NCBI GenBank assembly: GCA_017962375.1 | Contig: JAGCVJ010000015.1 | Location: 62,001 to 126,000, forward strand | Source of the DNA: Bacteroidales bacterium | GTDB lineage: Bacteria; Bacteroidota; Bacteroidia; Bacteroidales; UBA932 | Direction of reading: 5' to 3' | Length of the DNA: 64,000 bases | Shown here: positions 1-4,726 of the stretch, in pieces | How the letters are laid out: the number at the start of each line of letters is the position of its first letter | How positions within the stretch are numbered: position 1 is the first letter of the stretch | The notes under the pieces: generated by a model | What the model saw: only the letters and a program-made list of their open reading frames with translations | Databases searched by the model: none | What the model was told of the DNA's origin: nothing | Program-made: the position numbers and the translations under genes

Positions 1-990
1 GCCTGTTGCTGCATAGAAATCGAGGTTGCCGGTTGAGCCGAGGTTTACATACAGGTTGACCGGAATGCCCACATAATGCACGCTTTGCTTGATGCTGTAG
101 TTGGTCATGTTGATCCTGCCGTCATACTTGCTGTGCAGGTATGAATAGCTGATTCCGGTGCCCACAGAAAGATAGTGATTGATCTTGTAGTTCACTCCCA
201 GGGCAAAGTTCAGAGGCAAAGAATAGGACACTCCGGAAACCTGCTCTATTACAGGAGCGTGTGAGTACATTACATAGCTGGTTCTTTCAGCCAGCGCTGC
301 CACCATAGGATTTGCGGAGCCGTCCATCTTGCTCCTCTGCGAGAAATTGGACGAAGCGGAAATCGACACTCTCCTGCCGAAAGCAGGATTGTCTGAATAG
401 TCTCTGTCTCTGTGGTTCTTCTTTGAAGAAAATACGGAGGAGTTCTTTTCTTCCTTGTTGACGGTGACTGCATTTTCTTTTTCAGAAGTCTTTGAAACGG
501 TTTCCTCTTTTTCAGCCGGCTTTGCATCAGAAACAATCTCTTTCTCTGAAGGGTTCTCAGCGACTATCTCCTGAGAAGTTTCCCTCTGAAAATCCTTTGA
601 AGCTTCAGCCTCAGAGATTCCCTGCCGGCCTTTTGCAGCTGGAGTAACTGCGTAGGCCAGCACAGGATTCTGAGCATCCTTCTCCTGCTTAACCTCTACT
701 GGAGAGTTCTCCTCATTCCCTTCAGCCAGAATTGTAGTTTTTTCAATAGGCGTGTTTTCAGGCTGGAAAGGGGTTGGGTCAGAAGAAGGTGACTTCAAAA
801 GGAAAAAGCCTGCAACTACAGCGGCAGCCACAGCAGCCGCGGCACCCGCCCAGTAGAGATAACCTCCCTTCTTAGGAGCGGCTGACGGCAGCGACTGTGA
901 AACAGACTCCCACAAAGAAGAAGACTCCTCCCTTGTGAGCTGCCATTTCTTGTCCAGGCCCTTGTCCAATATGTCTTTCAACTTTCTCAC
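1..990 (-). CDS. Dual-membrane anti-sigma / outer-membrane beta-barrel protein (Dma-like), partial
   Basis: The frame is open from a GTG at 990 to the left window edge (330 residues, C-terminus missing). Residues 1-43 are a short charged, probably cytoplasmic segment. Residues 44-65 form one Ala/Val-rich transmembrane helix. Residues 66-205 are a Glu/Lys/Pro/Ser-rich linker. From about 206 alternating aromatic/glycine strands look like an outer-membrane beta-barrel (for example SVGTGISYSYLHS near 276). The GTG overlaps the sigma-factor stop as GTGA, so the two are co-translated. Such inner-membrane-linker-barrel proteins encoded beside an ECF sigma factor resemble the Dma (dual membrane-spanning anti-sigma) family described in Bacteroides thetaiotaomicron. 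By inference it binds the neighbouring sigma factor with its N-terminus and senses outer-membrane state with its barrel. Alternative: an ordinary porin-like protein with an uncleaved anchor. Confidence 0.75.
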   Translation of the reverse strand, partial: MRKLKDILDKGLDKKWQLTREESSSLWESVSQSLPSAAPKKGGYLYWAGAAAAVAAAVVAGFFLLKSPSSDPTPFQPENTPIEKTTILAEGNEENSPVEVKQEKDAQNPVLAYAVTPAAKGRQGISEAEASKDFQRETSQEIVAENPSEKEIVSDAKPAEKEETVSKTSEKENAVTVNKEEKNSSVFSSKKNHRDRDYSDNPAFGRRVSISASSNFSQRSKMDGSANPMVAALAERTSYVMYSHAPVIEQVSGVSYSLPLNFALGVNYKINHYLSVGTGISYSYLHSKYDGRINMTNYSIKQSVHYVGIPVNLYVNLGSTGNLDFYAATG

Positions 991-1580
991 TTTGCTTTTT
1001 CTTTAGACGAGTTCAACTTGTTGATTCTCTCCTGCAACCAAGCTCTTGCCCTGCTCAGCTGGGAGCGGCAGCCCCCTTCGCTCAGGTTCAGCATCTTGGA
1101 AATCTCCTTGTGGGAGAAACCCTCAATGGCGTAGAGGTTGAAAACCGTGCGGAAGCCGTCTGGCATGGAAACAATCAGTTCCATAAGCTTGTCGGCATCC
1201 AGCTGCGCCGTTTCTTCAGGATCAAGTTCCAGAGTTGCTTCAGCCTTGGAGGATTCTCCGTCTATCTGCACGGCCTGTTTCAGAATGTCAGTCTTGCGGA
1301 TCTGCATCAGGCAGGCCGTCACGAATATTCTTCTGGCCCAGCCTTCAAACATGCCTTCTCCGCGATAGTCTGAAAGCTTTGAGAAAAGGGTTATGAAACC
1401 GTCGTGAAGCACGTCCTTGGCCAATTCCCTTTCTCCCATATAGCGCAGACAAACGGGGAACATCCTCATAGAAAGCTTTTCATAAAGCTCTCTCTGCGCC
1501 CTTCTGTCCAGTTTTCTGCACTTGGCAACCAAGCCGGAATAAGGGTCCTGAAGTTCCCGTGTCTTTTTCTCGTCTGACAT
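987..1580 (-). CDS. ECF-type RNA polymerase sigma factor
   Basis: 197 residues, the usual size for an extracytoplasmic-function sigma-70 factor. Sigma region 2 lies at about residues 25-95 (LRYMGERELAKDVLHDGF and FEGWARRIFVTAC). Region 4 with its helix-turn-helix lies at about 130-190 (EGFSHKEISKMLNLSEG, then SQLSRARAWLQ). It would direct core polymerase to an envelope-related regulon. A -7 box on the minus strand at 1627-1620 precedes it. Its stop overlaps the GTG of the barrel protein, which is the probable cognate anti-sigma factor. The family call is firm; the regulon is not visible here. Confidence 0.93.
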   Translation of the reverse strand: MSDEKKTRELQDPYSGLVAKCRKLDRRAQRELYEKLSMRMFPVCLRYMGERELAKDVLHDGFITLFSKLSDYRGEGMFEGWARRIFVTACLMQIRKTDILKQAVQIDGESSKAEATLELDPEETAQLDADKLMELIVSMPDGFRTVFNLYAIEGFSHKEISKMLNLSEGGCRSQLSRARAWLQERINKLNSSKEKAK

Positions 1581-1619
1581 TAAGATGCAATTCTACGTTG
1601 AAAGGTTGCAAAAGCAACA

Positions 1620-1627
1620 CAAATTTA
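1620..1627 (-). promoter_or_regulatory. -7 box of the ECF sigma gene
   Basis: TAAATTTG read on the minus strand matches the Bacteroidota -7 consensus TAnnTTTG and lies 39 nt before the ATG at 1580. A small perfect hairpin (GTTGC, AAAA, GCAAC at 1605-1618) sits just downstream in the presumed leader. Confidence 0.55.
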
Positions 1628-1687: not shown

Positions 1688-3451
1688 ATGAGGCATGTTT
1701 TTTCCATATTTTCCGTGGCTGTCTGCATGTTATGGAGCGTTGCCGCGAGCTGGGGCCAAGACCTTAGGTCCATAGCCGCCAGCGACTCCTGCATGATTGA
1801 GGCAACCCTGGCCTTCAACCGCCAGAACACCGAAAAGGCCGCGGATCTGTGCCGCAAGGCTTTGGAATTCAACTCCAGAAACGACGCCGCCTACTATATG
1901 CTGGCCAAGCTGGCCATCGGAAGCGCGGATTATCTCCAGGCAGAAAAGCACCTCAAGAGCGCGGCCGAGATAGACAGCGCAAACTACTACTATATGGCAA
2001 CGCTCGGGGCCATATATCTCCAGAACAACGACATCCCCTCTGCCATCAAGCTCCACGAGTCTCTGATCAAGAGGTTCCCTTCCAAGCCGGACTCATACGT
2101 GGCCCTGATAAACCTCTATACACCGAGGGGGCAGTCCGACAAGGCGCTGGAGCTGGCGGACAAGCTGGAAAAGGCCATAGGGCCCAACGAGCAGTCCACA
2201 ATGGCCAGATTCAAGGTCTATACCGCAAGAAGAGAACACCAGAAAGCCATAGACGTGCTGGCAAAGGCAGACGAGGTTACGCCAAACCAGATGTACGAGA
2301 CATACATCGCAGACCTTTACGCCGGGCTGGGCAAAGACTCCCTGGCCCTAGCCTATTACAGCAAGGCGCTGGAGATCGACCCGGACTACATTCCCGCCCT
2401 GTACGGAAAGATGGAGACCTTCAGAAGGTACAAGAACTATCCGCTTTACCTGGCTTACCTGAAGTCTTTCCTGTCTAACCGCTATACAGACGGGAGCATA
2501 AAGAAAGCCCATTTGGAAGAGGTGATGAAAGATCCTGTATTCTATCAGCAGTACAGAAACGAAATGGCAGAGTGCATACAGGAATATGCCGCCTCAGCCC
2601 CGGCAGACAGCGCTGTTGCAATCTCCGGAGCCATAATGCTTTCAAGATACGGGGAGTTCCAGAAGGCCGGAAAGGTGCTGGACGGCATTCTCAAATATTA
2701 TCCCGAAGACGCCTATATCCGCAGAAACATGATGTCTTTCCTCTACAGCACCGAAAACTGGGAAAGGCTGGAAAGTTTCTCGGATTCCACCATGGCCCTG
2801 TTCCCGGACCAGGCTGTGGAACTCTTCCAGTTCAAGGCTTTCGCCGAGCTTAACCAGAAGAAATTCAATGCGGCCATCCAGACGCTGCTGTCCCAGGAAA
2901 AGGCCGTCAAAAAGCTCAGGGACACCTCAATGCTGCTGCAGATTTACTCTCTTGTGGGAGATATGTACCACAGCAAGAATGACGACAACAGTGCCTTCAA
3001 ATATTACGAAAAGGCGCTGAAGCTGGATTCAGACAATCCGGGAGTGCTCAACAACTACGCCTGGTATCTTGCAACGGGAAGCACAGACAGGATTCCGGAC
3101 AAGAAAACTCTGCGAAAGGCTCTCTCTATGGCAAAGACCGCCGTTGAGAAATCTTCCGGAGAGTCGCATTACCTTGACACCTACGCCTGGGTGCTGTTCT
3201 TGAACGGAGACGTGGAGGAGGCCAAGAAATACATGCAGCAGGCAGTGGCCTACGGCGGAGTTGACGACTCGGGCATTCTCACCCGTTATTCAGACATTCT
3301 GGCTTCCCTGAAAGAATATGACCTGGCAATGATGTACTACAAGAAAGCCCTGCTGAAAGCGGCAGAGAGCGGAAACCAGGCAGAGGTAGACAAGATAAGC
3401 GCCAGGATTGAAAAAACAGCCGCCCTCCAGAAGGAAGATGGTGGAAAATAA
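1688..3451 (+). CDS. Secreted tetratricopeptide-repeat protein
   Basis: 587 residues with an N-terminal signal peptide (about 1-23, ending SWGQ). The rest is almost entirely TPR helices: units with the W/Y-A-G-A-P pattern recur, for example AAYYMLAKLAIGSADYLQAE near 58, a unit near 225 ending in KALEIDPD, and another near 430 ending in KALKLDSD. It is probably a periplasmic scaffold. The next gene, an EnvC-like protein, starts 9 nt later, so the pair likely works together at the cell wall. The ATG at 1688 is chosen because it begins the signal peptide and follows a -7 box. The repeat family is certain; the partner is inferred from position. Confidence 0.85.
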   Translation: MRHVFSIFSVAVCMLWSVAASWGQDLRSIAASDSCMIEATLAFNRQNTEKAADLCRKALEFNSRNDAAYYMLAKLAIGSADYLQAEKHLKSAAEIDSANYYYMATLGAIYLQNNDIPSAIKLHESLIKRFPSKPDSYVALINLYTPRGQSDKALELADKLEKAIGPNEQSTMARFKVYTARREHQKAIDVLAKADEVTPNQMYETYIADLYAGLGKDSLALAYYSKALEIDPDYIPALYGKMETFRRYKNYPLYLAYLKSFLSNRYTDGSIKKAHLEEVMKDPVFYQQYRNEMAECIQEYAASAPADSAVAISGAIMLSRYGEFQKAGKVLDGILKYYPEDAYIRRNMMSFLYSTENWERLESFSDSTMALFPDQAVELFQFKAFAELNQKKFNAAIQTLLSQEKAVKKLRDTSMLLQIYSLVGDMYHSKNDDNSAFKYYEKALKLDSDNPGVLNNYAWYLATGSTDRIPDKKTLRKALSMAKTAVEKSSGESHYLDTYAWVLFLNGDVEEAKKYMQQAVAYGGVDDSGILTRYSDILASLKEYDLAMMYYKKALLKAAESGNQAEVDKISARIEKTAALQKEDGGK

Positions 3452-3460
3452 ACTTTTGTT

Positions 3461-4726
3461 ATGAGATTTGGACGGAAAACGGCAATGACGGCAACGGCGG
3501 CTCTGGCTGCCGCGATTCTGTTTGCCCTGCCGTCCGGGGCGCTGGCCCAGAACAAGACCATCGAGAAGAAAAAGCAGGAAGCCGGAAAGCTCCAGGAAGA
3601 CATCAAGTTCCTGGACAAACAGATATCAGAGACAAAGAAGCAGAGGGAGAACACCCTCTCCGAGCTCAAGCTGATAAACAAAAAGGTTGACACCAGAAAA
3701 AAGCTGATCGAAAGGCTGGAGGAGGACATCAAGCGGCAAAGCGACGAGATTTCCGGAAAGACAAGAGCCATCGAGATTATGAACGCCCGTCTGGACAGTC
3801 TCAAGGCTTCTTACAAGAGAATGATAATCAAGGCCTACCGCAACCGCGACACCAGAAAATGGTTCATGTACATAATTGCGAGCGAAAATGTGGAGCAAGG
3901 TTATCGCCGATGGAGCTATCTGAAAAAATACTCCGCCTCCCTGTCTGAAATGGCAAAGCAGATCAAGGAAGACACGAAAAGAATAGAGGGGGAAAGGAGC
4001 GAGCTTTCGCATCTTCAGGCCGAAAAGATAAAAGACCAGCAGGCCACCACCGAAGAGTACAACAAGCTCAAGAAAGACCAGGACAAGAGCAAGGCCTACG
4101 CCAACACTCTGGCCAAGCAGCAGAAAAAGTACGCCCAGGAGCTCCAGAAGAAAAAGCAGCAGGCGGACCGCCTGAACAAGGAAATAGAAAGGCTCATCTC
4201 CCAGGCCATTGCCTCTGAAAGGAAAAAGGCGGCCGAGGCGGCAAAGAAAAGCGGAACGTCAAAAACCGGCTCTTCTTCAAAGACCTATTCAGAAACCCCG
4301 GAGAGCGCCAAGCTCAGCGGCTCTTTCGAGAGCAACAAGGGCAACATTCCTTGGCCGGTGAAGAAAGGAATGATAGTGGAAGGCTTCGGCTCTCATCCTC
4401 ATCCAAGCATAAAGGGAGTTATGCTTCCGTTCAACAACGGAGTGAACATAGCCGCACCTAAGGGAAGCCAGGTCTTCAGCGTGTTCGAGGGAGTTGTAAA
4501 ACAGATAATAGTCATTCCGGGCTACAGCCACTGCGTGCTGATTGAGCACGGCAAGTTCTTCACCTTCTACTGCAAGCTGGGAAAGGTCAGCGTGAAGAAC
4601 GGGCAGAAAGTTGCCCAGGGAACCCTCCTCGGGACAATAGACAATAACCAGGAAAGCCCGGAGATACACTTCGAGCTCTGGATGGGCACCCAGAAACAGA
4701 ATCCTGAAAACTGGCTAAAGAAATAG
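3461..4726 (+). CDS. EnvC-like murein hydrolase activator with degenerate LytM domain
   Basis: 421 residues: signal peptide (1-29), a long Lys/Glu-rich coiled coil (about 30-260), a Ser/Thr linker, and a C-terminal LytM/M23 domain (about 297-421). The zinc ligands of active M23 peptidases are mostly gone. HxGxD is replaced by NNGVN (325-329), the Tyr-x-His-Leu strand reads FYCKL (369-373), and only one His of HxH survives (EIHFEL, 401-406). The architecture and loss of ligands match EnvC-type proteins, which activate amidases rather than cut peptidoglycan. It is therefore more likely a regulator of cell-wall hydrolysis at division than an endopeptidase. Its stop abuts the convergent kinase gene with no spacer. 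Confidence 0.85.
   Translation: MRFGRKTAMTATAALAAAILFALPSGALAQNKTIEKKKQEAGKLQEDIKFLDKQISETKKQRENTLSELKLINKKVDTRKKLIERLEEDIKRQSDEISGKTRAIEIMNARLDSLKASYKRMIIKAYRNRDTRKWFMYIIASENVEQGYRRWSYLKKYSASLSEMAKQIKEDTKRIEGERSELSHLQAEKIKDQQATTEEYNKLKKDQDKSKAYANTLAKQQKKYAQELQKKKQQADRLNKEIERLISQAIASERKKAAEAAKKSGTSKTGSSSKTYSETPESAKLSGSFESNKGNIPWPVKKGMIVEGFGSHPHPSIKGVMLPFNNGVNIAAPKGSQVFSVFEGVVKQIIVIPGYSHCVLIEHGKFFTFYCKLGKVSVKNGQKVAQGTLLGTIDNNQESPEIHFELWMGTQKQNPENWLKK

Follow-up and report, generated by a model that had tools for sequence, protein, structure and literature searches.

A probable Dma/Reo-class pair of ECF sigma factor and barrel-bearing anti-sigma factor in an uncultured Bacteroidales genome

Two adjoining genes at the left end of the stretch of DNA analysed here (the window: 64,000 nt, bases 62001-126000 of contig C8 in a genome of 2.17 Mb and 87% estimated completeness) probably encode an ECF sigma factor and a dual membrane-spanning anti-sigma factor of the Dma/Reo class, the second protein holding and then freeing the first in the manner proposed below. 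The architecture of the anti-sigma protein, the pairing of the genes and their conservation, the length of the tether and the conservation of the promoter are all supported by computation. Dma1-3 and Reo already define this architecture, and it is their class that the window locus joins.

The sigma gene (987..1580, minus strand) encodes a Das/EcfO-like protein of 197 aa, in which Pfam recognises both Sigma70_r2 (35.5 bits) and Sigma70_r4_2 (51.1 bits) above cut-off, identifying the gene that adjoins the barrel anti-sigma gene as one for an ECF sigma factor. Beyond its own gene, the sigma protein has seven weaker sigma matches in the genome; the whole barrel protein has one match there. The anti-sigma frame (1..990, minus strand) begins with a GTG at 990 and is open at the window edge, its remainder lying to the left of the window. 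The sigma stop and this GTG overlap as GTGA (987..990, minus strand), as the first-pass annotation had noted. Among homologues, which it had proposed to search for the GTGA junction, the tight coupling of the two genes is conserved, and the exact four letters vary. With gene starts set by rule at the start codon nearest the preceding stop, the start-to-stop distance runs from -23 to +25 nt in 76 named relatives (-4 in three) and from -11 to +28 nt in 48 unnamed relatives (-4 in ten), these two sets sharing species and the 48 including the window's own copy; the genes overlap in 42 of the 76 and 18 of the 48. These variable distances rule out the GTGA letters as a family marker.

The surroundings of the pair are as follows. 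Divergent genes at 1688-4726 encode a 587-aa TPR protein and a 421-aa coiled-coil protein, the latter resembling an M23/EnvC-type peptidase by eye, and a divergent start codon recurs at the same position in most of the aligned upstream rows. On the other side, genes for an MlaE-family-like permease (below the curated cut-off) and an ABC ATPase (L002:4223-5727) converge on the anti-sigma gene, the ATPase gene ending 3 bases from it.

Leftward extension of the contig completed the barrel protein, which occupies L002:5731-6990 (minus strand), is 419 aa long and has the C-terminus FHLK. Its most hydrophobic 19-residue window comprises residues 47-65, leaving 46 residues in front, and Pfam places OMP_b-brl_2 at residues 239-373 with 36.7 bits against a cut-off of 27. 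AlphaFold2 was run on a relative, L060, standing in for the window protein. The L060 model has helices at residues 2-15 and 20-33 (block pLDDT 58-78), a helix at 45-64 of low confidence (48-60), no structure over residues 65-212 (mostly 40-54), and a C-terminal part with nine strand elements, or eight if 355-360 and 365-379 are counted as one interrupted strand. In this barrel the first strand has a block pLDDT of 90, with values of 50-59 in the loop that follows and 86-98 from residue 251 onwards, and in a fold comparison the folded protein matches OmpA-type eight-stranded barrels. The barrel that had been expected in the full-length protein is thus found, both as a Pfam match above cut-off and in the fold of a relative.

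On this basis, the window protein can be divided into four parts, all encoded on the minus strand. A putative cytoplasmic anti-sigma segment (residues 1-43; 862..990) has two helices, modelled with moderate confidence in L060, and a near-invariant tryptophan, W27. It is followed by a predicted inner-membrane helix (about residues 45-65; 796..858), placed by hydropathy and by the low-pLDDT helix of L060, and by a weakly conserved tether with no predicted structure (about residues 66-206; 373..795), whose borders were carried over from L060 by eye. Last comes the start of the OmpA-like barrel (about residues 207-330; 1..372), assigned from OMP_b-brl_2, the L060 model and the fold matches, and continuing to residue 419 outside the window. 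The Dma-type layout read from the partial gene is supported: a predicted cytoplasmic segment, a single helix, a sufficiently long tether (about 140 residues), a barrel matching eight-stranded ones and an ECF sigma partner. Arguing against a signal-peptidase site after the helix, all 96 proteins of a non-redundant set have 39 or more residues ahead of the hydrophobic window, and in the column of W27 tryptophan is the top residue, at a frequency of 0.99.

Searches with the N-terminus gave no known anti-sigma domain in Pfam at E values up to 1, including no match to the class I (ASDI) fold, and no anti-sigma match among solved structures in a profile search. According to one survey, an ASDI neighbour is reported for only 6% of Bacteroidetes ECFs (PMC7406223). 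The best match of the N-terminal profile to a solved structure, CHD_r1, was rejected, having an E value of 0.013 over 16 positions only. For the full-length profile, the best match (E 0.0019) was an outer membrane protein chain of 9hiv, an entry whose title names the BamADG components of the B. thetaiotaomicron BAM machinery, and this was also set aside.

Contact between the two proteins was modelled with a stop-read-through fusion of the sigma and anti-sigma proteins of a relative. The mean pLDDT of this model is 66.9 (57.3-61.7 for the other four models), and the helix around W27 is confident, with a block pLDDT of 89. The sigma domains are placed as in some anti-sigma-bound crystal structures and unlike others. 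The sigma part fits CnrH over both domains (151 residues); the alignment covers a single domain for AlgU in its two complexes with MucA and for sigmaE bound to RseA (89-91 residues, 91 for sigmaE), and SigK-RskA and BldN-RsbN fit poorly, with rmsd values of 7.7 and 12.1. SigG1 (7qh5), whose title names no anti-sigma factor, fits equal to the best (148 residues, rmsd 4.6). With so mixed a comparison, the model is no proof of contact, and at most suggests that residues 1-43 may bind the sigma factor.

The length of the tether was estimated from 96 non-redundant proteins out of 122 complete ones, duplicates and two cut sequences (L063 and L139) having been dropped. From the membrane helix to an invariant proline of the barrel, the mean distance is 178.9 residues (s.d. 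14.2, range 153-222), and in the window protein it is 193. The first strand and its following loop account for about 50 of these residues, which leaves a free tether of roughly 100-170 residues, and about 140 here. Taking 0.36 nm of chain contour per residue and a periplasm of 20-25 nm, even the shortest tether, with a contour near 37 nm, exceeds the periplasm. Across the same proteins, the mean frequency of the top residue falls from 0.52 in the barrel to 0.36-0.39 in the N-terminus and helix and to 0.13 in the linker. The tether thus keeps its length whilst its sequence varies, as a spacer would behave. Loci of one other family (L152-L158 and L160, family code f6) have open frames of 474-620 aa behind a related sigma gene, and at L152 and L158 these show longer charged linkers and a diverged C-terminal part.

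The barrel protein has a match at E ≤ 0.001 in 36 of the 39 genomes of the genus. Matches were also found in 124 of 149 sampled family genomes, many of the rows aligning over the barrel part alone. Directly upstream, a long ORF of sigma size is present in 48 of 48 loci examined, a count that includes the window's own copy and leaves out L025, which lies at a contig end; 27 of these ORFs were aligned, and all 27 share the invariant residues of the sigma factor. Starting from the sigma side, with the best 80 of 526 relatives, the barrel protein lies directly downstream in 76 loci. Three of the remaining loci (L084, L128 and L133) are cut short, the contig ending 61-136 bases past the sigma stop. 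The other, L112, is a close sigma homologue truly without an adjoining barrel anti-sigma gene, its long ORFs being on the other strand. The sigma relatives are records of uncultured Bacteroidales, many of them from the guts of ruminants and other animals, and there is no B. thetaiotaomicron record among the best 80 of the 526.

A pattern resembling the sigmaE type of promoter (GAACTT-N16-TCTGA), TGCAACCTTT-N11-TGCATCTT, lies ahead of the sigma gene at 1582..1610 on the minus strand, and we take it as the predicted ECF promoter of the operon itself. The exact pattern has a single match in the window and a single match in the genome. Its spacing is the same in 27 of 29 genus rows (L019 and L039 do not have the exact form), and 55 of 124 redundant rows match the promoter regular expression, all with the same length. 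When a matrix trained on the genus was applied to the 19 family rows outside it, which are the independent rows, 18 scored above at least 99 of 100 shuffles, and L050 failed. The full scan passed 90 of 95 rows, although these include species that trained the matrix. As the pattern used for the shuffle control was derived from the site itself, that control says little, and support for the promoter comes from its conservation. Within 1581-1589, the -10-like box ends one base before the sigma start codon, which would imply either a near-leaderless transcript or the use of another start; from GCATC to the assigned sigma start there are 3 bases in the window and 15 in L031. By eye, in an upstream alignment of 13 rows, a possible housekeeping -7 box, TAAATTTG, can also be seen at 1620..1627 (minus strand), which we take to fit the motif TAnnTTTG.

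Over the whole genome, the strict promoter consensus matches only the operon itself, so that no envelope regulon is visible. Allowing up to one mismatch, GCAACYTT-N13-GCATCTW has two sites in the genome (none in the control), the second of them antisense inside an apparent ribosomal-protein gene (by eye), and TGCARC-N15-TGCATCTW has five, against four in the reversed control. One such one-mismatch promoter-like site, L264 (G000:C7:150322-150350, minus strand), lies about 45 bases before a gene for a 276-aa protein that looks lipoprotein-like by eye; since sites of this type are no commoner than in the reversed control, it is a weak lead to a regulon. NigD proteins belong to the regulon of relatives in Bacteroides and Phocaeicola, as described in PMC13088901, PMC13114119 and PMC9308784. 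The 87%-complete window genome gave no NigD_N match, whereas the control genome of Bacteroides ihuae does match. The link to vesiculation that the first-pass annotation had named for Dma-type proteins is hence unsupported at this locus, and a vesicle function should not be assumed.

Amongst known systems, RseA-sigmaE and CnrY-CnrH are alike in having a membrane anti-sigma factor that holds an ECF sigma factor; to our knowledge, neither has an outer-membrane barrel. The closer likeness is to Dma1/Das1 and Dma2/Das2 of Bacteroides thetaiotaomicron, which by their description in PMC13088901 share with the window pair an N-terminal anti-sigma part, one membrane helix, a long disordered tether, a C-terminal barrel and an adjacent ECF sigma gene. 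The window locus differs from theirs in having no third co-directional gene, the convergent ABC ATPase gene standing there instead, and no NigD_N protein was found in the 87%-complete window genome. The same source describes the dma2 deletion phenotype as requiring Das2, and places Dma3 in the same class of barrel anti-sigma factors, with a sigma-like domain and the anti-sigma part in one chain where the window locus has two overlapping genes (PMC13088901). EcfO-Reo of Bacteroides fragilis and Phocaeicola vulgatus is also alike, with a sigma gene followed by one for a predicted periplasm-spanning anti-sigma factor with a C-terminal barrel, and is described as being induced by envelope-targeting toxins (PMC9308784, PMC13114119). 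Its described regulon contains three nigD genes, whereas none is recognised in the window genome. According to PMC13114119, Reo extends through all five compartments, and treatment with BcpT or Bd-A upregulates ecfO-reo more than any other genes; bacteroidetocin A is described as binding and inhibiting BamA (PMC9308784).

If the pair operates as we infer, residues 1-43, as two helices around W27, would keep the sigma factor bound on the cytoplasmic side of the inner membrane. The single helix would pass through that membrane, the disordered tether of about 140 residues would pass through the periplasm, and the OmpA-like barrel would sit in the outer membrane. A disturbed outer membrane, or disturbed insertion of the barrel, would then cost the anti-sigma factor its grip, by proteolysis or by a change at the tether, and the freed sigma factor would use the promoter at 1582-1610 to transcribe, at the least, its own operon.

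How the grip is lost bears on the strongest alternative, for which RseA, an anti-sigma factor released by a protease relay, is the precedent. Outer-membrane stress would here bare the tether to a periplasmic protease, an intramembrane protease would then free the sigma factor, and the barrel would be merely the stress-sensitive end. We put the chance of this a little below even. It competes with the idea of the first-pass annotation that the signal passes with no protease relay; being compatible with membership of the class, it overlaps in probability with the reading preferred above. A long, weakly conserved and structureless tether would make a natural substrate, and regulated intramembrane proteolysis of the anti-sigma factor is among the ECF activation mechanisms named in PMC4183432. 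Another possibility, proposed for Dma2 by its authors in PMC13088901, is that the outer loops of the barrel recognise a surface ligand, such as a glycan, and pass the signal inward. We consider this unlikely for the window pair. Its neighbours encode an MlaE-family-like permease, an ABC ATPase, a TPR protein and, by eye, an M23-like peptidase, with no glycan-utilisation genes seen among them, and a protein matched in 36 of the 39 genomes of the genus is better suited to a core role in the envelope than to the sensing of one glycan. The induction of relatives by a BamA inhibitor and by an envelope toxin likewise fits a sentinel of envelope assembly or integrity better than a glycan sensor.

The failure of Pfam (E up to 1) and of solved structures to reveal a known anti-sigma domain in the N-terminus would also be expected if the protein were a mere outer-membrane protein beside a sigma gene, its N-terminal part being a signal anchor with no anti-sigma activity. 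This seems to us very improbable in view of the pairing counts from both sides (76 of 80 among the best 80 of 526 sigma loci, and 48 of 48 from the barrel), the near-invariance of W27 in 96 proteins and the occurrence of similar pairing in other families. The genetics of the published relatives, as described in their reports, also argues against it.

The pairing in other families was surveyed at 59 related sigma loci outside the family, picked by us from the best matches listed, several of them from one genome. At 22 of the 59 the next gene is long (at least 380 aa), and 16 of these 22 match OMP_b-brl_2 at E up to 0.01. At another 28 (within L206-L258), a short next gene (177-363 aa by the start rule) is followed by a gene of at least 250 aa, which matches OMP_b-brl_2 at E up to 0.01 in 21 cases; of the seven that do not match, one is CHU_C/nidogen-like and one has diacylglycerol-kinase domains. 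When ten of the 28 were sampled, nine second genes matched OMP_b-brl_2, seven of them above the curated cut-off, and the ten short proteins gave no barrel match in Pfam, with two weak unrelated matches below cut-off. The second gene is small at 8 of the 59 loci, seven of these looking like thioesterases by eye, and L248 fits no category. At L204, L205, L217, L218, L221, L228 and L230 (family code f4) the gene behind the anti-sigma gene encodes about 143 aa and is thioesterase-like by eye, and in the anti-sigma proteins of L204, L205 and L217 the W motif recurs before the membrane helix.

The adjacency of short anti-sigma genes and barrel genes is not due to chance: the 20 genomes with a short-type locus have 5-18 OMP_b-brl_2 matches each (219 in total), and, at about one bacterial gene per kilobase, these amount to well under 1% of genes. 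By eye, most of 20 listed second proteins start with a signal-peptide-like stretch. Seven aligned short proteins share the W motif, and in many of the short proteins the C-terminal tail is charged and helix- or strand-like (by eye), possibly a docking element. We suggest, tentatively and at slightly less than even confidence, that the Dma design is modular, the single covalent chain being one of its forms; the other, in several other Bacteroidota families, would consist of a short anti-sigma factor with membrane helix and tether, plus a separately exported OmpA-like barrel encoded by the next gene. Having no covalent link, this form would rely on the tether docking with the barrel or with the outer membrane, and docking or undocking would carry the signal. 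No description of it was found in a search of the full-text literature; the founding 2024 Dma paper, which lies outside that search, may have one.

A quick tree of 77 sigma proteins, labelled as fused or split by ORF length and order (with L248 left out; the survey itself had excluded G274:C11, at a contig edge), needs 4 changes of the fused state, compared with a mean of 25.6 when shuffled. All 25 rows from the order Bacteroidales group together (support 81), and all are fused. The best tree suggests that the fused and two-protein forms may have interchanged more than once, but its strongly supported branches force only one change and so do not require this.

The window locus extends this recently described class of envelope sensors to uncultured Bacteroidales of animal guts. 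It brings with it three testable features, namely a tether whose length is kept and whose sequence is not, a fixed promoter of autoregulatory type, and a near-constant pairing of the two genes. If the two-protein form is real, it would serve as an experiment of nature on whether signalling depends on joining the two membranes covalently, one of the main questions about the class.
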